From the IMG/VR virus record IMGVR_UViG_3300047319_000662, positions 1 through 39,880 of that record: 39,880 bases of DNA; one strand, given 5' to 3'. This DNA is from a virus. Shown here in pieces: positions 21,399 through 35,881 of this stretch (positions are counted from its first letter, which is position 1; the number at the start of each line of letters is the position of its first letter). Position numbers and translations under genes: made by a program. Below the pieces are notes generated by a model. It worked only from the letters and a program-made list of their open reading frames with translations. It ran no database searches and was not told where the DNA came from.

Positions 21399-21682
21399 CG
21401 CTTACCCCCATTCCGTCCCATTGTCCCAATGTCCCAAGGAAAAAAAGTTGCGGATGCGCGCAGGCGCCCGCGACATGCGCACCCTTGCACGCACGTCGCG
21501 CACGTCGCACGCATTACGCGCACATACGCGAGGGGTTGCGCTTGGGACGTCGGGACATGGGACGTTGCGCAGCGCGCCGAAACACCACAAGCAGCGCGCC
21601 GACATACGCTGACGCGCGCGCCAAAGCCTGCGGCGAGCGAGCAAAACGGCGCGACGAAATTGGCATTAAAGCGGTGCGTCAT
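21395..21682 (-). CDS. possible small Cys/Arg-rich protein
   Basis: A frame of 95 residues runs from an ATG at 21682 (overlapping the primase stop by 17 bp) to a stop overlapping the zinc-finger gene start (ATGA). Eight cysteines occur, including CATCVQGCAC. The overlaps at both ends favour translation, but the middle is made of GC-rich repetitive DNA with inverted GGGAC arrays, and the composition (Ala, Arg, Cys) may simply reflect the DNA. It could be a real linker gene or a chance frame over an origin. Confidence 0.35.
   Translation of the reverse strand: MTHRFNANFVAPFCSLAAGFGARVSVCRRAACGVSARCATSHVPTSQAQPLAYVRVMRATCATCVQGCACRGRLRASATFFPWDIGTMGRNGGKR
21415..21437 (+). repeat. array of three GTCCCA repeats (8-bp period)
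   Basis: GTCCCA occurs at 21415, 21423 and 21431, exactly eight bases apart, separated by TT and AT. It is the inverted counterpart of an array at 21543-21564. Such arrays beside a replication gene resemble iterons bound by an initiator. Confidence 0.6.
21543..21564 (+). repeat. inverted array of three GGGAC repeats
   Basis: GGGAC occurs at 21544, 21552 and 21559, in the opposite orientation to the GTCCCA array about 105 bp away. A segment of alternating purine/pyrimidine, GC-rich sequence lies between. A role as replication origin is inference from the repeat layout and the adjacent primase gene. Confidence 0.5.
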
Positions 21683-24407
21683 CGTCGTGCTCCGCTTGCG
21701 CAACAGTCGCCGGAATGACAGGTGCCGGTGCGTCGACCGGATCAGGAGGCGTGTAATACCACTCACGGTTGCCGCTCGATTCGCGCTTGCGGATCCAGCC
21801 AAGCGACTTCATTGCCTTGCCGACACGGCGCTGCTCAGCTGGTGACCACTTCGCGATTTCCAGCTTGAGACAGTCGCCGAGGATGTCTTCCATCGTCACC
21901 TTGCTCAGCATGGCGATGTGACGGGCGATCATCGTCTCGTAGATGTCGCCCTCATAGCGCGCTTCCTGCTCGGTCGAGAACAACGGCTTTTCGTGAGGCA
22001 GCACTTGCCACGGCGCCGGCAGAATACCGCCCGCCTCGTCGTTCGCTTTCTGCCATTCGAGATATGCCTGGTACGCCTCTGCCCAGATCTGGTCGCGGTC
22101 CTGAGCCAGACCACGCAGGTCGAGCGGCGTGCCTGCCTTCACAGGCCAGTAGCGACGGTTACCGGACTCGTCTTTCAGGTACGTATCGAAGTTGACCGTG
22201 CCGCCAAAGACGCTCTGACGCGGCACGTCGATCGCACGCCGAGCGTACGGCGGCCGGTACGTGTCCACTGCCGTCGTAAAGAAGCGTTTCGCGTTTGATG
22301 AATCGCTCTTGCTCAACGCGTCGAGCTCGGCCAGCTCGATCAGCCACTTGCCGGCCATGACTGAGAACGTGTCCTTATCGCCAATCACGATGTTGGCGTC
22401 CGTGAACCACTTCTCGCCCCACAGCGTGCGAAACAGCGCGGACTTGCCGGCGTCCTGCACGCCTTCGAGAATCAGCACGTTGTCCATCTTGCAGCCGGGC
22501 TTCATGACTCGACCGACAGCACCAAGCAGGAACTTGAACGCGACGAGGCGGACGTATTCCGTGTCCGGCGCGAGCGCATAGTTGACCAGCCAGCTGCGCA
22601 GCCTTTCCTTCCCGTCCCATTGCAGGCCATCGAGGTAGTCGCGAACTTCGTGATATCGGTTGCGATCGGCGACAAGAAACACCGCATCGGCGACTACGTC
22701 GCTGCGCGGGCTGAACGAATAGCGTTGACCGAGCCACAGCACGCATCGCGCATCGTCACGGTCAGACCACTCGCCCACTTCACCGCCTTCGAACGGCGGC
22801 GGTTTCAGCTTCATGATGCGAAGCGAAAACTGCTCGAAGCCGAACACGCCCTGCCACTTCTCATCGTTCGACAGGATCGTGAAAATGTTGTCGAGCGACG
22901 GAAGTATTGCCGCCGATTTCTCTGCACGCCGCAGCTGCTGACGCCACGTGTAGGCACCGTTTTCGACCTCGACGACTTCGCCGCCTGCGTCAGCAGACGT
23001 TGCGCGCGCGCCCGAATGCAGATCAATCACAGTGCGCACGTCGTTCGCGGCCGGGGCGGATATCACACCGGCCTTCTGCATCTCCTCGATCAATGCTGCC
23101 GCACGGTTATAGCCAATACGCAGGCCACGCTGCACACCTGAGACAGTCGCACGGCGGCCCTGACGGACAAGCGCAACCGCGTCGCCGTACAGCGGATCCG
23201 CGATCGGCGCAACCGCATGAAGGTGCGGGAAAGGAGCGATCTCGTCGGCAGACGGTGCAAGGGCCGCCAGCAGCGCCGCCTCGATCTGCGCCTTGACGAC
23301 GTGCAGCCCCTCTTCGCAATGCAGGTCATTGAAATCAGTCAGCTTGCGATCGCCCCGATCGGCGAACCGCGGATACACCACGCTCGCATTGCCAACGTCC
23401 GTAACAGCCTCTTCCGCACGCTTGCGGCCGGTGTTCTCGAAGCGCAGCACGCGCTCCGGCATGACGTCATTCCAGACCGCGAGTTCGATGTACTCAACGC
23501 CGCCGTTGATCTGCTTGTACTGCGCATGCAGCATGTACGACGTGTTCTTTGCCTCGATCTGGATCGCGTCCGCGCCGATCACAAACTCGCCGGCGTAGCC
23601 GTAGTCGTCCGCGAGGTGATCACGCAGGCGCTGCTCGATCTTCCAGTCGTCATCTGCACAGATCAGCAGATGCAAGTCGGGATACGCCGCGCGAAGCGCC
23701 CGAGCTGCCGGCAGAATTCCACCAGCATCGAAGCACACAGACAGTGGGATCTGGGCATCCGTCGCCATACGGATCGAGCGGCCGGTCGCATAGCCTTCCG
23801 CGATCATGGCGATCCGGTCGTCGACGGTCAGCTCGCCAATGCGAAACTCCGCGCCCTTCTTTTCCATGCCCTTGTTAAAGCGCTTGGCACCGTCCGGCGT
23901 CACCTTCTGCAAGCCGACCATGCGAGGCTCATCAGTGCCGTACCGGTACATCGGCACCAGCAGCGTGCCTTCGGCGTCAAAGCGAACGCCCTCCGGCGTG
24001 ATCTGCTTGCGCTCCAGATACGTTGACTCGCCTTCGACGAATGCGTGCTGCCATTGCGTGCGCGCACGATTAGCGGCCATCTTGGCCGCCTGCACCCGCT
24101 TGCGCTCGTCTTCTCGATCGAGCTCGGCCTGACGGGCGCGTGTCGCGGCGAGGTCCTCCGGCGCCGCCGCCTCGCCCTGCCACTCAAACGCCTGCGAGCC
24201 GTTGTCGTCGCCGACCCAGCGCCCGTATGCACCGATGTAGCCAAGCACCTGCCCGCGACGGACAACCTGATGGATCGAATACCAGAATTTCTTGCCCGGA
24301 CCATAACGGTGCGGTTTCCCGTTATCAGAAACGCGCGGATGGCCTTCCGGAAGTTTCGGATGTCCAGCCGCCGCGAGCTGGGCCGCAATCTGTTCGAGTG
24401 ACGCCAT
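21666..24407 (-). CDS. primase-helicase with Toprim and VirE/VapE-type ATPase domains
   Basis: This 913-residue replication protein has three parts. The N-terminal part carries a Toprim-like fold (IAEGYATGRSIRMATD near residue 200 and LHLLICADDDW near 250). The middle (about 370-470) contains a possible winged helix (GDAVALVRQGRRATVSGVQRGLRIGYNRAAALIEEMQKAGVIS). The C-terminal domain (about 560-860) is VirE/VapE-type: LILEGVQDAGKSALFRTLWG (Walker A near 650), WLIELAELDALSKSD (Walker B region) and FGGTVNFDTYLKDESGNRRYWPV. Such proteins prime and unwind DNA at phage origins. A four-Cys zinc ribbon, common in related primases, is not visible at the N-terminus. The ATG lies one base after the preceding small gene's stop. 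Confidence 0.92.
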   Translation of the reverse strand: MASLEQIAAQLAAAGHPKLPEGHPRVSDNGKPHRYGPGKKFWYSIHQVVRRGQVLGYIGAYGRWVGDDNGSQAFEWQGEAAAPEDLAATRARQAELDREDERKRVQAAKMAANRARTQWQHAFVEGESTYLERKQITPEGVRFDAEGTLLVPMYRYGTDEPRMVGLQKVTPDGAKRFNKGMEKKGAEFRIGELTVDDRIAMIAEGYATGRSIRMATDAQIPLSVCFDAGGILPAARALRAAYPDLHLLICADDDWKIEQRLRDHLADDYGYAGEFVIGADAIQIEAKNTSYMLHAQYKQINGGVEYIELAVWNDVMPERVLRFENTGRKRAEEAVTDVGNASVVYPRFADRGDRKLTDFNDLHCEEGLHVVKAQIEAALLAALAPSADEIAPFPHLHAVAPIADPLYGDAVALVRQGRRATVSGVQRGLRIGYNRAAALIEEMQKAGVISAPAANDVRTVIDLHSGARATSADAGGEVVEVENGAYTWRQQLRRAEKSAAILPSLDNIFTILSNDEKWQGVFGFEQFSLRIMKLKPPPFEGGEVGEWSDRDDARCVLWLGQRYSFSPRSDVVADAVFLVADRNRYHEVRDYLDGLQWDGKERLRSWLVNYALAPDTEYVRLVAFKFLLGAVGRVMKPGCKMDNVLILEGVQDAGKSALFRTLWGEKWFTDANIVIGDKDTFSVMAGKWLIELAELDALSKSDSSNAKRFFTTAVDTYRPPYARRAIDVPRQSVFGGTVNFDTYLKDESGNRRYWPVKAGTPLDLRGLAQDRDQIWAEAYQAYLEWQKANDEAGGILPAPWQVLPHEKPLFSTEQEARYEGDIYETMIARHIAMLSKVTMEDILGDCLKLEIAKWSPAEQRRVGKAMKSLGWIRKRESSGNREWYYTPPDPVDAPAPVIPATVAQAEHDDDAPL

Positions 24408-29914: not shown

Positions 29915-30366
29915 TGCCTTCTCCGGCCATTTCTACCCCACGCCCGCTGCCGCGTAAGCGGGGTACGGCGGACAAACGCCCACGGCTTTCCTTCGCTGGC
30001 GCCGTCCCGGCGCACGCATCGAACGACGACGTCAACAGCAGCGGGCTGGCGCCCGCCAAAGCGATCCAGACAAACGAAGCGCCGCTCGCGCGGCGTAAAG
30101 CTATCCAGAAGAAGGAAAGCGAGTCGGATACCCGACTCGCTAACCTCGCGCGGATCGACGCCGTTCGCGTCGAGATCCGCAAGCTGGTCGACGAGATCGC
30201 TATTGCTGCCGACATCGAGCTGCTCGACCTCATGCGCGACGAGGTAGGCAGCTACAGCCGGCACAAAGCGGCACAGGAGGCGCGGACGTGGGCTAACGCT
30301 GCTGGCGTCCAGCTCGAAACAGGACTAATGATGCTCGACCGCGCCATGCGGCCAACGTCGACGTGA
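29911..30366 (+). CDS. hypothetical protein coupled to ParB-like gene
   Basis: The gene encodes 151 residues from the ATG at 29911, overlapping the ParB-like stop (ATGA) behind GGAG. The first 70 residues are Pro/Ala-rich and probably disordered; the rest is helical (NLARIDAVRVEIRKLVDEIAIAADIELLDLMRDEVGSYSRHK, then a C-terminal helix). It may be a partner of the ParB-like protein, as the coupling suggests. No family recognised. Confidence 0.6.
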   Translation: MMPSPAISTPRPLPRKRGTADKRPRLSFAGAVPAHASNDDVNSSGLAPAKAIQTNEAPLARRKAIQKKESESDTRLANLARIDAVRVEIRKLVDEIAIAADIELLDLMRDEVGSYSRHKAAQEARTWANAAGVQLETGLMMLDRAMRPTST

Positions 30367-30376
30367 GGCAAGACCA

Positions 30377-31039
30377 ATGACCTTCAAACCCACCGAAGCA
30401 AAGATCACGCTGCACGGACTCGGATTCCTGCAGTTGCAGCTGGCCGCTAACATGCGCCTCCACGTATGGCATCCGGAGCTGCCGCGACGCAAGTGCTTTG
30501 AGCATTCAGCCATCCACGATCATCGCTTTGGCTTTGATTCTCGCGTGCTGGTCGGAACGCAGATTAACCACACGTATGCGCAGATGTTCGTCGATACGGC
30601 GCCTGACTTCGTGGTCGACAAGACGCACACCGCCTACCTGCACGAAGGCGAACGCACCCGCTTTGGCAATCGCCCATGGATTCCCGATTACGAGCTCGTG
30701 CTCGCGAGAATGCACGTCGAGGTCGTGCCGGCCAGCAAGCAGTACTCGATGGACCCATACGTGTTTCATCGCACCGAGCCCGCCGGCGACGGCCGCGTTG
30801 CGACGCTGATGACAAAGACGTTCGAAGGCACGCGGGGCGCGCACTCGCTATGCACAATCGGCGTCGAGCCTGATGTCGACTTTGACCGGAACCAGATCAG
30901 CGAACGGCGCATGTGGGAGTTCGTGCGCGACGTTCTGGGTGATATCCCTGTCGTGCCGGATCCGCGGTGCGTCAAACGCCTGCCCTGCGAGTGCACGACA
31001 AACTGCGGTGACGACGGCAAAGGGAGGGTTCATCAATGA
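30377..31039 (+). CDS. cupin-like protein of unknown function
   Basis: The 220-residue protein has a beta-rich core with a cupin-like metal-binding pattern: HSAIHDHRFGFDSRVLVG (about residues 44-61) and DPYVFHRTEPAGDGRVATLM (about 125-144). A Cys-rich end follows (CVKRLPCECTTNC). Cupins of this size include dioxygenases, isomerases and sugar or nucleotide modifiers; which applies here cannot be told. It lies in the rightward operon, 10 bp after the previous gene. Confidence 0.6.
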   Translation: MTFKPTEAKITLHGLGFLQLQLAANMRLHVWHPELPRRKCFEHSAIHDHRFGFDSRVLVGTQINHTYAQMFVDTAPDFVVDKTHTAYLHEGERTRFGNRPWIPDYELVLARMHVEVVPASKQYSMDPYVFHRTEPAGDGRVATLMTKTFEGTRGAHSLCTIGVEPDVDFDRNQISERRMWEFVRDVLGDIPVVPDPRCVKRLPCECTTNCGDDGKGRVHQ

Positions 31040-31410
31040 GCCGCATGCCGATTGATTCGGGGCGATACGTTCCCGTGATCGTCAACGGGCACCGCCAATG
31101 GGCGCGCGACCAAGTTGCTTTGCAAGCCGAGATCGTCGAGCTACTCGACCAGCACACCGGCCTGACGAAGAAGCGGATCATCATGACGCTGTCGACGGCG
31201 CAGGCCGCAGTCGAAACTGCGCTGGCCAGCCTGCGGCAGGCTGGCACGATCGAACGCTATCGGGCAATGAGCGCACGTCGACGACTGGACGAGCACTGGT
31301 GCATCTCGGGGCGGATGCCGGCCGCAAGCCAGGCGAACTTTCGAGCAATGGAAATTTTGGCGGGGTTTCAAGAAGCTGCCGCGCGGAAAGCTGGGAGTAT
31401 GACCGTATGA
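31036..31410 (+). CDS. probable winged-helix protein
   Basis: The 124-residue protein (ATGA overlap with the cupin-like gene) has a likely helix-turn-helix at residues about 28-75 (LQAEIVELLDQHTGLTKKRIIMTLSTAQAAVETALASLRQAGTIERY), of winged-helix type, followed by a short beta end. It overlaps the excisionase-like gene. It may regulate integration or the operon end. Function otherwise unknown. Confidence 0.6.
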   Translation: MSRMPIDSGRYVPVIVNGHRQWARDQVALQAEIVELLDQHTGLTKKRIIMTLSTAQAAVETALASLRQAGTIERYRAMSARRRLDEHWCISGRMPAASQANFRAMEILAGFQEAAARKAGSMTV

Positions 31411-31709
31411 GAACGTTTGATCTGATTGAGTGCGCGGAGTTTTTGAAGGTCGACCGCAACACGGCGATGAAACTCGCCGGTACCGGCGAGCTGCCCGGCG
31501 CTAAAATCGGCCGGGCTTGGGTGTTCCTCGAAGACGACGTCGTCGCGTTTCTGAGAAAGAAAACGCAGGAACAATCACTGGCTCGACTGCAGGGCGCCCA
31601 CGAGCCGGAGACTGACGATCGCGTCGCCCGCACTATTGCGAGACAGATTGGACTTCCGGACCCTCGCAGACCAGGCCGGCGCGCAAGAGCCCTACCGGCG
31701 TTGGCGTAA
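31407..31709 (+). CDS. xis: excisionase-like DNA-binding protein
   Basis: The gene encodes 100 residues from the ATG at 31407, overlapping the previous stop (ATGA). Residues about 1-50 (MRTFDLIECAEFLKVDRNTAMKLAGTGELPGAKIGRAWVFLEDDVVAFL) form the MerR-like helix-turn-helix of the excisionase family (helix_turn_helix DNA-binding 17). It is last in the rightward operon and integrase is encoded 2.8 kb away, so excision control is plausible; the CI-linked promoter would make it when repression is lifted. Confidence 0.75.
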   Translation: MRTFDLIECAEFLKVDRNTAMKLAGTGELPGAKIGRAWVFLEDDVVAFLRKKTQEQSLARLQGAHEPETDDRVARTIARQIGLPDPRRPGRRARALPALA

Positions 31710-31789
31710 AGATGCGGCCCTAAAATTCCACCGACACTTAGCGGGAAAAATTTCCGCTTGACTTTTACAAAGTTAGGGGTGATTTGGGG

Positions 31790-31873
31790 TTGCAAATCTA
31801 CTTTTGCATTGCTACATTGGTTCTGCGGCGCGCCCCAAAGTTGATTTACGTTTGCGGCTAGTCGCGTTATAAT
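31790..31873 (+). promoter_or_regulatory. tandem promoters before putative small RNA
   Basis: Two sigma-70-like promoters are visible: TTGCAA (31790-31795), 17 nt, TACATT (31813-31818), and TTTACG (31845-31850), 17 nt, TATAAT (31868-31873). The second has a consensus -10 and should start RNA near 31880. Confidence 0.65.
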
Positions 31874-31972
31874 CGCGCGTTTTTTCGAACCAACGTGTCA
31901 TGAGCCTGTCGAACAGGGGTAGTGCACTAACCAAGCGCTGTCGTCTCGGCGACAGGCAATGAGGAGCCTCCT

Positions 31973-32005
31973 ATGATCATTCAAGACATTCGTCCGCGTG
32001 GATAA
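31973..32005 (+). CDS. 10-codon ORF MIIQDIRPRG in small RNA
   Basis: ATG at 31973 follows GAGGAG by six bases; those six are CCTCCT, complementary to the ribosome binding site. The peptide MIIQDIRPRG ends at TAA 32005. A perfect binding site makes translation likely, but the peptide could be a leader whose translation controls the RNA rather than a functional product. Confidence 0.4.
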   Translation: MIIQDIRPRG

Positions 32006-32027
32006 CACAACTTTGCAGCACGTTGGT

Positions 32028-32053
32028 AAAAAGCCCGCTTTGCGGGCTTTTTT
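32028..32053 (+). terminator. intrinsic terminator of the small RNA
   Basis: AAAAAGCCCGC and GCGGGCTTTTTT form an 11-bp stem with a 3-nt loop and T run. The mirrored A run means it could also stop minus-strand transcription leaving the gene at 32057. Confidence 0.85.
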
Positions 32054-32056
32054 ACG

Positions 32057-33253
32057 TCACTTCAATAGTTCGCCGTAGCGTGGGTCACATCTCTCCCGAA
32101 ACCAGTTGAAGTCCGGGTCATCCACCACATCTTCGCGCAGGTTAGGATCGGCCTCAATAGCCCGCTTCAGATAGGCTAGCGAACGCTGCCGGTAGTCCCT
32201 GCTCCTCCCGTTGTTAGTGATCGAGGCCTCCTGCTCAGCCAACAGGCAGCAATAACACGCTGCGTTATAAAGTGCAGGCGTCTGTTCGCTGGGGTGGTAC
32301 TTGTCTATGACAATTTCGGCCATCTTCAACGCGCCCAGATAATCCCCTTGTCGTCGCAATATGTTCCCACGAGTGATAAACGCTCGTGCCACGACCTTTG
32401 CGGACAGGCCGTCCGGCCGATCTGTAACCTTGTCAAGATAGTGTCGGCCGATATCTAGATACGACCGGTAACTTGAATCCGTTTCGACCACCGCATCTGG
32501 CTTATGCATTTTGAGCAGCACTTCGTATAAGCTAGCGATCTCCCTCATGATAATGCCGTGAGCAGTATTGATTTCCGCAGAGTTGTCTGCGGCATAGCGC
32601 ACCTTCACGAACTCAGCATGATCTTTAATCGCTTGATCGGCGCGCGCAACTGCTTCCTCGGCCCGAGCGCGCGCTTCGTTCGCTGCATCAACAGCACTGT
32701 TGGCAGTCACCACAATTTCCTCTGAGCGCCGCTTCGCCGCAACGAAAGTATCCAATCCTTTAAAACCTAAGAATGCCAACAGGGCGCCAAAAGCGGCAAA
32801 AAGCGAGAAAAGCTTGTCGTATGTGTCCTTCATCGCATCAGCTCGATCCTTCGACGAGTCGATGGCCATTTTGGCGACGTCAGCAACGCTACGTCCGTCC
32901 ACCGCCGCCGACGTCGACGTCGACGTCGACGTCGATAATGTAGCGGAGGCCGCTGCCGGCGGAAGACTGGAAGTTGCCAAGGACTGTTGTGCGACGCCTC
33001 CGCCTCCGAACCAAGTCCCCGTAATACCTTTGGGTAACGCAATGAGACAAACCGCGAGAACAATGATGTATAGCGGAAGGATCGTGACGAAGGTGGTATT
33101 CAGCCACCCCAGCTTTGGAGCAGGCTCCAATCGCTTTGCAACAACACCGGGAGCTGACGCAGCAGTGGTCGCGAGCCCGGGCGCCCCCGTAGCCGGCGGT
33201 CCATTTACCTGCGCAACCTGTGGCTGTGCTGGTTGTGTGTTTTGGTCACTCAC
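32057..33253 (-). CDS. membrane protein with coiled coil and helical repeats
   Basis: The gene encodes 398 residues from a GTG at 33253, five bases after GGAG. A longer frame to an ATG at 33376 runs into the integrase end and lacks such a site. A Pro/Ala/Gln-rich N-terminus is followed by a membrane segment (FVTILPLYIIVLAVCLIALP), a Ser/Thr repeat coded by GTCGAC units, a second membrane segment (LFSLFAAFGALLAFLGF), a coiled coil (VDAANEARARAEEAVARADQAIKDHAEFVK) and a TPR-like helical C-terminus. It lies between integrase and the small RNA, a place typical of lysogenic conversion genes. Function unknown. Confidence 0.75.
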   Translation of the reverse strand: MSDQNTQPAQPQVAQVNGPPATGAPGLATTAASAPGVVAKRLEPAPKLGWLNTTFVTILPLYIIVLAVCLIALPKGITGTWFGGGGVAQQSLATSSLPPAAASATLSTSTSTSTSAAVDGRSVADVAKMAIDSSKDRADAMKDTYDKLFSLFAAFGALLAFLGFKGLDTFVAAKRRSEEIVVTANSAVDAANEARARAEEAVARADQAIKDHAEFVKVRYAADNSAEINTAHGIIMREIASLYEVLLKMHKPDAVVETDSSYRSYLDIGRHYLDKVTDRPDGLSAKVVARAFITRGNILRRQGDYLGALKMAEIVIDKYHPSEQTPALYNAACYCCLLAEQEASITNNGRSRDYRQRSLAYLKRAIEADPNLREDVVDDPDFNWFRERCDPRYGELLK

Positions 33254-33283
33254 GATTTCTCCGTTTTTCGTTTTAAGATGTCG

Positions 33284-33289
33284 ATCATA
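33284..33289 (-). promoter_or_regulatory. candidate -10 for the membrane-protein gene
   Basis: TATGAT lies 31 bp before the GTG start on the minus strand. The matching -35 region is poor (GGAACG at 17 nt), so this promoter is tentative. An own promoter would let the gene be expressed in a lysogen. Confidence 0.35.
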
Positions 33290-33344
33290 ACTAGAGAAGC
33301 GCAGATCGTTCCAGCCCAGATTTCGCCGCGACTCTCTGTCCCGG

Positions 33345-34505
33345 TTACCAAAGGCGCGATGCCAAATCACTACCACGAAGATTGGAGTACCGCATTAGTA
33401 TCTTCGTGTCCGAATGCCCGGTAATCTTGGCGATTTGGATATCGGATAACGACGTCTTTTCATAAAGCCTTGATGTCGCCTCATGGCGCAGATCGTGAAA
33501 CTTGAAGTCGCTACACCCCGCCACATCAAAGATGCGTCCGAACTGGCCAGATAGACGCACTGATATTCCTGCCAGCACCTTCTTGTCTTTCGAGCCGTCC
33601 CACCACGGAAATAGCCGGCCACCATCAAAAGCAAATCCCTGCATTTCCGCATCACGTGCCATCACCAGTTTGCGATACCGCTCGAAGGCGGCGATTGCCA
33701 CTGTCGTCAGCGGCACCTGACGCTTGCTTCCGTTCTTCGTCTTGTCCAGAAACACCGTCGCTCGTGCGACGTCAAACTGGCTAAGATCGATCGTGTACAT
33801 CTCGCGCATGCGCATGGCCGACTCAAGGCCGAGCTCGAACAGAAAGACCATCGCCGGCCGGAAGTTCAGATCAGGCCCGCGCTGACGGTTTCCCGGCTTC
33901 TCGCCGTCGAGGATTCGCCGCACCGACGCCTCTTCGCTTGTGAGCAGTCGGCGATCACGCGACTCATCTTCTTTCGGCGCTTTGTCCTGCGCCCGCACAG
34001 CCACAGCGTCTTCGTCGGTGTATGTTGCATAGCGCTTCGGCAGGAGGCGCAGTGGATTTGTCGCCAGTGATGGTGTGCCCGAACGCACGACCCAATCAAA
34101 GCATCGCGCCAGTGCGCCGACGTAATGACGAATGGTCGACGGCGCCATCACATCTTTCCGCTTCATGCTCTTGACCCAGCTTTCGGCCCACTGATAGTCG
34201 ACGCCTGTCAGCGCCTGCCCCGTCCACCGACCAATAAGCGCGTTGAGTAACGAGACATCCGACGCGGGCAGCGACACCTTGGTCATGTAGGAGCGAATCG
34301 CGTCCTCGACGGTCACCAGTTCGCCGCGGCGAGCGACAAGGTCTTCAGGGAATATGCCGGCGTCGAGCATCTGCTCCAGGCGCCTGACGTATGCGTCGCC
34401 CTCCTCCTCTGTATCGAAGGTCAGGGAAAGTGGCTTTGGCAGAATGCCTTTGCGCCGAATGATGTATTCCCACGTCCCGGAAGGACGCATTCTTTTAGTC
34501 GCCAT
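33345..34505 (-). CDS. int: tyrosine recombinase integrase
   Basis: The 386-residue protein has an N-terminal arm-binding/SAM-like region and a C-terminal catalytic domain. Catalytic residues are visible: Arg in LESAMRMREMYTIDL (about residue 230), Lys in the hairpin FLDKTKNGSKRQVPL, His337 and Arg340 (HDLR), His364 (TGHSDTK) and the nucleophile Tyr373 (MRYSNL). It should recombine attP with a chromosomal tRNA gene; a tRNA-Cys-like fragment lies 190 bp upstream. The sequence is intact. Confidence 0.95.
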   Translation of the reverse strand: MATKRMRPSGTWEYIIRRKGILPKPLSLTFDTEEEGDAYVRRLEQMLDAGIFPEDLVARRGELVTVEDAIRSYMTKVSLPASDVSLLNALIGRWTGQALTGVDYQWAESWVKSMKRKDVMAPSTIRHYVGALARCFDWVVRSGTPSLATNPLRLLPKRYATYTDEDAVAVRAQDKAPKEDESRDRRLLTSEEASVRRILDGEKPGNRQRGPDLNFRPAMVFLFELGLESAMRMREMYTIDLSQFDVARATVFLDKTKNGSKRQVPLTTVAIAAFERYRKLVMARDAEMQGFAFDGGRLFPWWDGSKDKKVLAGISVRLSGQFGRIFDVAGCSDFKFHDLRHEATSRLYEKTSLSDIQIAKITGHSDTKILMRYSNLRGSDLASRLW

Positions 34506-34829: not shown

Positions 34830-35237
34830 CTAAACGCGGTACGGCAGGTGACGCCGAATAAGATCTGCATAGTGATGCAAGCCGCGTTTTTCCAACTCTT
34901 TGACGAACACTGGCCAAGGCGGGATGTTGCTCATGTAGGGTACAGAACCCGTAGACATACCACCACCTGACCCGGTTGAAAGCCCTCCGCCAGCCCCCGT
35001 CGAAAGACCACCGCCGGCGCCGGTTGATAGTCCGCCGCCCGCGCCAGTCGAGAGTCCACCGCCCGCTCCAGTCGACAGACCTCCGCCGGCACCGGTCGAC
35101 ATCCCTCCGCCTGCGCCGGTTGACATCCCTCCACCAGCACCAGTCGATGCCCCACCGCCTGCACCCGTACTCATCCCTCCGCCCGCACCCGTCGATAGTC
35201 CGCCGCCGGATCCGGTGCTTTGATTTCTATTCCACAT
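34830..35237 (-). CDS. glycine-rich octapeptide repeat protein
   Basis: The 135-residue protein begins MWNRNQ, then has 11 repeats of eight residues of the form STGAGGG followed by Leu, Met or Ala (residues 7-94), and ends with a unique helical segment ([30 protein letters not shown]). There is no signal peptide or membrane segment. GGGGG precedes the ATG at 35237. The unique C-terminus suggests a specific binding domain on a flexible linker. It lies next to attP, where accessory genes accumulate. Function unknown. Confidence 0.7.
34956..35219 (-). repeat. eleven 24-bp coding repeats
   Basis: Eleven in-frame 24-bp units code for STG(A/S)GGG(L/M/A). Many synonymous differences exist between units (for example cca/ccg/cct at Gly codons), so the protein repeat has been kept while the DNA has drifted, rather than arising from one recent expansion. 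Confidence 0.9.
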
Positions 35238-35402
35238 CTTGACCCCCTGCGTTGAATTTATAGCGAAGATTCATCACCAAGCCTCCATCGTCGCGCACTC
35301 TGTCCCGTTTTACCATCATCCTTTAGTTCAGGGGGTGGAATGATAAGCAAAGAGCCCGCCAGATAAGGCTCTGCTACGGTGCTGTAGCAAAACAGTAGCA
35401 AC
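35238..35402. other. non-coding stretch upstream of the repeat protein gene
   Basis: It holds a weaker terminator-like hairpin (AGAGCC/GGCTCT, 35351-35373) that repeats part of the strong one at 35403-35431, and a TATAAA on the minus strand near 35260 that may be the -10 of the repeat protein gene. Nothing else is seen. Confidence 0.4.
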
Positions 35403-35431
35403 AAAAAAGAGCCCGCCGAAGCGGGCTCTTT
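35403..35431 (-). terminator. strong terminator at the end of the late operon
   Basis: AAAGAGCCCGC and GCGGGCTCTTT form an 11-bp stem with a 4-nt loop; on the minus strand a T run follows. It lies downstream of the last spanin-like gene and so should end the long late transcript that passes through the circular junction. It also insulates the 35510 gene from upstream. Confidence 0.85.
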
Positions 35432-35460
35432 GCATTTGAGGCGTGGTGCAGATACGCCGC

Positions 35461-35504
35461 ACCTCAGTAAAATACTGTATGTTTATACAGGATTTTACTG
35501 AGGT
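35461..35504 (+). promoter_or_regulatory. LexA box within a 44-bp palindrome, overlapping the RBS
   Basis: TACTGTATGTTTATACAGGA (35473-35492) fits the LexA consensus CTGT-N8-ACAG. The flanking arms ACCTCAGTAAAAT (35461-35473) and ATTTTACTGAGGT (35492-35504) are exact inverted copies with the same centre. The right arm contains GAGG (35500-35503), the binding site for ATG 35510. RNA starting upstream of the left arm would hide that site in a hairpin; RNA starting inside the LexA box would not. Confidence 0.8.
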
Positions 35505-35509
35505 GCAGT

Positions 35510-35881
35510 ATGAAGCTTCCTGAATTCCAGCCCCCGACTCTCGCCGAGCTGCGCAACCTGTGGCGCGTCCACTGTGGGGAACGCGAAATTGAGCGCCTGA
35601 TCCTTGAGGTTCAGTATCTGCGCCTGGTTCTGCTACAGCTTCGCGACGAAGCAGACGCCGCCGTTCGACTCGCAAAGGAGTTTGACCGAAGCCTTATCGC
35701 GCGCGAGTCGCCGATCATGGAACTCCGGATCCGGCTCGCCAAAGAAGTCCTGCGAGTGGGTGACGTCGACGACACCCCGAGGCACGACGCGGTGCCAAAA
35801 AAAGTCAGGGAATACGCCCGCGATCCGGACGCAATCAAATTCGAGGCTGACGCCCGCCGTCGACGTGAGCAGACAAAATAG
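35510..35881 (+). CDS. LexA-box controlled protein, candidate antirepressor
   Basis: The 123-residue protein (MKLPEFQPPTLAELRNLWRVHCG... ending DAIKFEADARRRREQTK) is rich in charged residues and helical (about residues 12-85, with heptad-like LILEVQYLRLVLLQLRDEADAAVRLAKEFD). No membrane segment or signal peptide. It is the only plus-strand gene in the late/lysis arm and has its own SOS-type control, so it should be made upon DNA damage. Because the repressor lacks a cleavage domain, it is a candidate for a LexA-controlled antirepressor such as Tum of phage 186; this is inference, and a toxin or other SOS effector remains possible. Confidence 0.65.
   Translation: MKLPEFQPPTLAELRNLWRVHCGEREIERLILEVQYLRLVLLQLRDEADAAVRLAKEFDRSLIARESPIMELRIRLAKEVLRVGDVDDTPRHDAVPKKVREYARDPDAIKFEADARRRREQTK

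Follow-up and report, generated by a model that had tools for sequence, protein, structure and literature searches.

Layout of the locus

The window analyzed here is a stretch of 39,880 nucleotides covering positions 1 to 39,880 of the viral record IMGVR_UViG_3300047319_000662. Between a gene of the HTH_17 type (31407–31709) and an integrase gene it carries an insert (31710–33344) comprising two convergent parts: a compact transcription unit on the + strand (31790–32053) and a gene on the − strand (32057–33253) for a membrane protein with a C-terminal TPR domain. The unit opens with two promoter-like sites, P1 (TTGCAA-17-TACATT, 31790–31818, + strand, 8/12 consensus positions) and the main promoter P2 (TTTACG-17-TATAAT, 31845–31873, + strand, 10/12), which has a perfect −10 hexamer and a GC-rich discriminator and from which transcription is expected to start near 31880. 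In the fold of the predicted transcript (31880–32053, about 174 nt) a 10-bp stem joins the 5' and 3' ends and a long hairpin spans approximately 31899–31961. The transcript includes a ribosome binding site (GAGGAG, 31961–31966) covered by a GAGG/CUCC hairpin, directly 3' of it the complementary CCTCCT (31967–31972), and a 10-codon ORF (31973–32005, ATG at 31973) for the peptide MIIQDIRPRG, which contains the motif D-I-R-P and is the sole short ORF led by a Shine-Dalgarno (SD) sequence in the 290 nt scanned on both strands. The last element is a terminator (32028–32052) with a perfect 11-bp stem and A and T tracts, which could serve either of the convergent genes. All of these features (the two promoters with 17-nt spacers, the consensus TATAAT, the stretch of some 174 nt with hairpins, the ribosome site with CCTCCT behind it, the peptide and the strong terminator) had been pointed out in an initial annotation and were found in place.

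Within the window, the combination of a 10/12 promoter with a perfect terminator stem of 8 or more bp no further than 260 nt downstream occurs once on the + strand and not at all on the − strand, and it was present in none of 40 shuffled windows. The RNA folds better than its shuffled versions (z of −4.7 with the terminator and −2.7 to −3.5 without it); since 10 of the 266 stretches of 147 nt sampled across the window also attain a z of −2.7, the fold carries little weight by itself. Across this unit and the related ones described below, leader folds partly hide the ribosome site (probability of being unpaired 0.10–0.53), which suggests, weakly given that the folds differ, that translation may be limited or conditional. 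An upstream ORF of 20 codons (MSLSNRGSALTKRCRLGDRQ), whose stop overlaps the ribosome site, has counterparts in two related units (L076 and L078) and was set aside as unsupported because overlapping ORFs are absent from L075 and L077.

The convergent membrane TPR gene

The − strand gene encodes a protein of 398 amino acids when read from the GTG at 33253, the frame being open to 33376. Two hydrophobic membrane segments are followed by a coiled coil and then by a C-terminal TPR/TPR-end domain, which is predicted to be cytosolic. No Pfam family was matched above cut-off; TPR models do match the C-terminal part, where the NCBIfam model 'TPR end-of-group' was found in five of five family members (all at E ≤ 0.1, with 1e-13 the best); the window protein scores just under the curated cut-off of that model. 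No HTH profile was matched in the protein. A single-sequence AlphaFold model was poor (mean pLDDT 52, about 65–75 at the TPR end) and was not used for fold searches. A tandem GTCGAC repeat at 32911–32936 encodes TSTSTSTS ahead of the second membrane segment and is absent from the relatives.

Searches in phages, plasmids and 148 Paraburkholderia genomes returned no relatives of this protein, and viral scans with the protein and with a DxRP-His pattern gave no match. Among 399 genomes of the family, clear relatives occur in four, from one other genus (E 4e-50 to 3e-67). These four well-aligned relatives (L075–L078) are 37–42% identical to the window protein, and two more distant ones (L088 and L089) were reached through a profile (E 4e-5 and 7e-5, about 50 residues matched). 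Matches of an order-wide profile at L090 and L092 were judged from their sequence to be LapB-like TPR proteins and were dropped. PADLOC gave no meaningful match to a catalogued defence protein, an outcome still compatible with a system not yet described, and a retron reading finds only HTH_17, TPR/membrane and integrase genes as neighbours, with no reverse transcriptase gene beside the unit.

A variable cargo slot in the phage

The distance from the stop of the HTH_17 gene to the end of the integrase gene was compared in relatives of the HTH_17 gene from viral contigs and genomes (the slot was seen across L002–L034). It is empty, with the two genes overlapping, in L003, L029 and L019–L022, measures 29–36 nt in L005, L010, L013, L015–L017 and L032, and holds different cargo of 0.46–3.6 kb in other relatives. 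The G+C content of the cargo (0.48 in the leader, 0.51 in the RNA and 0.55 in the gene) is lower than that of the phage (0.60). As judged by this comparison, the unit and the convergent gene are one insert in a variable cargo slot of a temperate phage. The initial description of a compact independent unit, not explained by its neighbours, thus holds as to compactness, with the promoters, ORF and terminator all its own, and fails as to independence, since the unit shares its insert with the TPR gene and relatives of that gene carry like units.

Some other features of the window may be recorded. An exceptionally stable inverted structure on both strands (35401–35547, z about −8) includes a perfect terminator-like stem near 35430; a − strand ORF of 135 residues (34830–35237) consists of about ten STGAGGG repeats; and a single protein of 913 residues (21666–24407) has both a VapE-like and an FtsK gamma domain.

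Peptide units beside relatives of the TPR gene

In each of the four loci L075–L078 the TPR gene is accompanied, at the same place, by a convergent unit with a short ORF and a terminator, the stop of the short ORF lying 44–77 nt from the end of the TPR gene. These units are built alike and read toward the gene from its 3' side in the order promoter, leader, ribosome site, short ORF, terminator. The encoded peptides are MKDVRPMDVRPMAAH in L075, MTQYFERLPKAERLPKA in L076 and MNMIDVRPMP in both L077 and L078, where the ribosome site is merely GTGAGG. At the two distant relatives the peptide is encoded in sense: in L088 (TPR membrane gene 964–1806) MDDMRPIH is found at the end of the TPR gene, its ATG overlapping the TPR stop codon, and in L089 (1318–2172) MRDVRPIH is in frame with the TPR protein at its C-terminus and is preceded by a ribosome site of its own. 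The latter is either a natural fusion or an internal start, and either one links the peptide to the TPR protein. The motif D-[VIM]-R-P is found in the window, L075 (twice), L077, L078, L088 and L089, in peptides of 8–17 residues; L076 deviates, with an ERLPKA repeat and no good match to the P1 or P2 pattern. Genes of the comM and lysE types were noted beside the TPR membrane genes of L088 and L089, that of L089 lying between them, and each of these loci also has a convergent proline-rich short ORF ahead of a terminator.

The promoter pattern recurs as well. TTGCA[AT]-N17-TACATT (P1) is exact in four of five units (window, L075, L077 and L078, not L076) and has no match in 1.03 million strand-bases of other loci, and P2 takes the form TTGACG-17-TA[TG][AG]AT in L075, L077 and L078. 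Since both patterns reappear in these three units, the candidate promoter pair with its 17-nt spacers is conserved. Directly after P1, between it and P2, the L075 unit has a 10-bp inverted repeat (TGCAAGTACC...GGTACTTGCA), and a shorter one, GAGC[AG]C...GTGCTC, occupies that position in L077 and L078; these repeats are possibly operators.

Conservation of the peptide rather than the RNA

The initial annotation had likened the unit, by its layout, to the Betaproteobacteria toxic small RNA of Rfam (RF02278), a likeness that did not survive the search: the model gave no match at its gathering score (50 bits), none at E ≤ 10 in a 464-base stretch and none in the whole record, while in the positive control, three genomes of Burkholderiaceae, it found four strong copies per genome that exceeded the cut-off. 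In B. cenocepacia four RNAs of this kind, of 57–92 nt, have been described (PMC4603805). The RF02278 RNA is 64 nt long with CUCC-rich stretches and no ORF, the present unit about 174 nt with an SD-led peptide of conserved motif, and the identity is ruled out by the failed match with its positive control, by size and by the ORF. A covariance search against Rfam as a whole returned only terminator look-alikes, at gathering and at relaxed thresholds.

Searched for as DNA, the unit yielded only terminator or hairpin fragments in phages, in plasmids and in genomes of Paraburkholderia (148), Caballeronia (58) and the family (399); a 17-base stretch of it had a single match among viral contigs (L074), which is unrelated. 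The exact 10-residue peptide is absent from viral contigs and from 84,980 species genomes. A covariance model built from the window alone (R1) found no relative and missed even the four paired loci, from which it follows that RNA structure is not the conserved feature.

The peptide motif fared differently. When each 290-nt region was shuffled, 1–3 of 3000 versions held an ATG ORF of 6–20 codons with D[VIML]RP, and the motif was absent from all 107 SD-led short ORFs counted over 514 kb of other loci; these chance figures overstate the case, because the motif was defined after the peptides had been viewed. The window peptide, for its part, had been set in advance by the initial annotation, and it was the partner protein, not the peptide, that led to the other lineages. 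The independent lineages are at most six (window, L075, L076, L077/L078, L088 and L089), all of them Burkholderiaceae. Across the members the arginine of the motif is encoded by five codons (CGT, CGA, CGG, AGA and CGC). When L077 and L078 are compared, no part is as well conserved as the ORF (32 of 33 positions identical, the sole change being synonymous); P2 is 93% identical, and the leader, the 3' part and the terminator are 75–84% identical. At the level of sequence, then, the comparison of relatives shows the promoters and the amino-acid motif to be kept, and the RNA sequence and fold not to be. For this reason a very short mRNA is the better description of the unit: the transcription unit and translated-looking ORF of the initial annotation stand, and its emphasis on a small RNA does not. 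A text search of the literature returned no paper on such peptides.

Mobility of the pair

L077 and L078 share exactly one block of 1.75 kb, which consists of the unit and the TPR gene, and their flanks are unrelated. In L081 the pair is flanked by direct repeats, 32 bp long, of a tRNA-Arg end, and in L083 it is found about 3.5 kb from an MmeI-type restriction gene, the only locus near a restriction gene. By this comparison the pair is mobile, an accessory module that the phage carries as cargo beside its integrase and that other bacteria have at unrelated chromosomal sites. Together, the phage slot, the shared block, L081 and L083 would fit the pattern of defence or addiction cargo. Because the same kind of membrane protein gene adjoins the peptide gene in distantly related bacteria too, the two genes probably form one mobile module.

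Alternative explanations

An RNA-centred explanation, in which the ORF is incidental, would make the unit a regulatory or toxic small RNA whose CCUCCU sequesters ribosome sites, or a CreT-like mini-ORF that sequesters a tRNA, as CreT toxins do (PMC8501985). The CCTCCT element, the strong terminator and the good fold agree with it, but RF02278 is unmatched, CCTCCT ahead of the start codon is not common to the other units, and RNA sequence and structure differ between units that keep the peptide motif; the arginine codons, moreover, vary between lineages, so that particular codons are not kept. This explanation is considered unlikely. Less probable still is a leader or attenuation element with no product of its own and a coincidental motif: SD-led short ORFs do arise by chance, as the 107 in 514 kb illustrate, yet no + strand gene follows the ORF ahead of the terminator, the motif appears in just 1–3 of 3000 shuffles per region, and the single change between the L077 and L078 ORFs is synonymous.

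Other alternatives accept the peptide and assign it a different role. It could be a cell-to-cell signal that leaves the cell, is taken up again and is sensed by the TPR protein, in the manner of the RRNPP systems, whose receptors are TPR proteins (PMC7430634). The peptide has the size of mature pheromones, the repeated motif in L075 and L076 could represent a multi-copy precursor, and a TPR protein is encoded beside a short-peptide gene as in RRNPP; nevertheless, no export signal is visible in peptides of 8–17 residues, the partner is membrane-bound through two segments and lacks a DNA-binding domain, and the RRNPP systems described are those of Gram-positive bacteria, all of which leaves signalling about as improbable as the small RNA. 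A little less probable again is a system resembling type I toxin-antitoxin pairs, where the short ORF would be a toxin silenced by folding of its mRNA and the TPR protein would confer immunity or be unrelated. The structured leader, the partly hidden ribosome site, the long 5'–3' pairing in the window, the short ORF and the strong terminator are what such a system would display. Its toxins, however, are hydrophobic and membrane-spanning and these peptides of 8–17 residues are charged and hydrophilic; a scan by consensus only of 30000–34000 found no − strand promoter of at least 9/12; and conservation of a motif together with a TPR partner is unexpected for type I toxins.

A proposed peptide and membrane TPR module

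The explanation that we favour, with moderate confidence, is a mobile two-part module in which a tiny peptide binds and controls its own membrane TPR partner, perhaps in phage defence. The pairing of the peptide gene with the TPR gene is well supported by the comparison of loci; beyond it, we infer the translation of the ORF, the cytosolic location of the product, its binding to the TPR domain, the direction of control and a purpose in defence or growth control. The unit would encode a very short cytosolic peptide of 8–17 residues with D-[VIM]-R-P, sometimes in tandem, and the tandem promoters together with a folded leader partly hiding the ribosome site would keep the peptide at a low, buffered level. 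TPR domains are known binders of short peptides, and the peptide would bind that of its own partner, so that the membrane protein would stay in a single state. Were the peptide lost or its level raised, as might happen when an infection upsets transcription or translation in the host, the membrane protein would change state and bring growth or infection to a halt.

More tentatively, the pair may represent a new class of Gram-negative module in which an unprocessed cytosolic ligand of 8–17 residues with D-[VIM]-R-P gates a membrane-anchored TPR effector, each peptide being matched to its receptor, for immunity or growth control. Standard annotation skips genes of 8–17 codons, and a class of peptide/receptor modules could therefore hide beside genes annotated as 'TPR proteins'; members of the family can be sought simply, as a D-x-R-P mini-ORF that lies no more than about 100 nt from where a membrane-TPR gene stops. 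Should the peptide indeed gate the membrane protein, it would rank with the smallest ligands encoded by bacterial genes and would represent a novel type of phage cargo or of defence switch.

Comparison with known systems

Tiny regulators of larger proteins and pairs of TPR proteins with peptides are known kinds of systems, and no known family matches the peptide/TPR module. The RRNPP systems (Rap-Phr, PlcR-PapR and AimR-AimP, some of them phage-borne) resemble it in that a gene for a tiny peptide adjoins one for a TPR protein; they differ in that their receptor is a soluble regulator or phosphatase and their peptide is exported, whereas in the present pair the partner sits in the membrane and the peptide shows no signal for export. 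AcrZ, MgtS and KdpF are membrane-spanning small-protein regulators of about 30–50 residues, and the likeness lies in a tiny protein that acts, as it presumably does here, on a larger membrane partner; in contrast, the present peptides have 8–17 residues, are charged and are mobile with their partner. RF02278 RNAs share with the unit a short length, a terminator of their own, a CCUCC element and an occurrence in Burkholderiales; at 64 nt, CUCC-rich and devoid of an ORF, they belong to a model that does not match it. Finally, CreT (PMC8501985) is likewise a small RNA with a strong ribosome site and few codons, but it sequesters tRNA, while in the units described here it is the amino acids that are conserved and not the codons.
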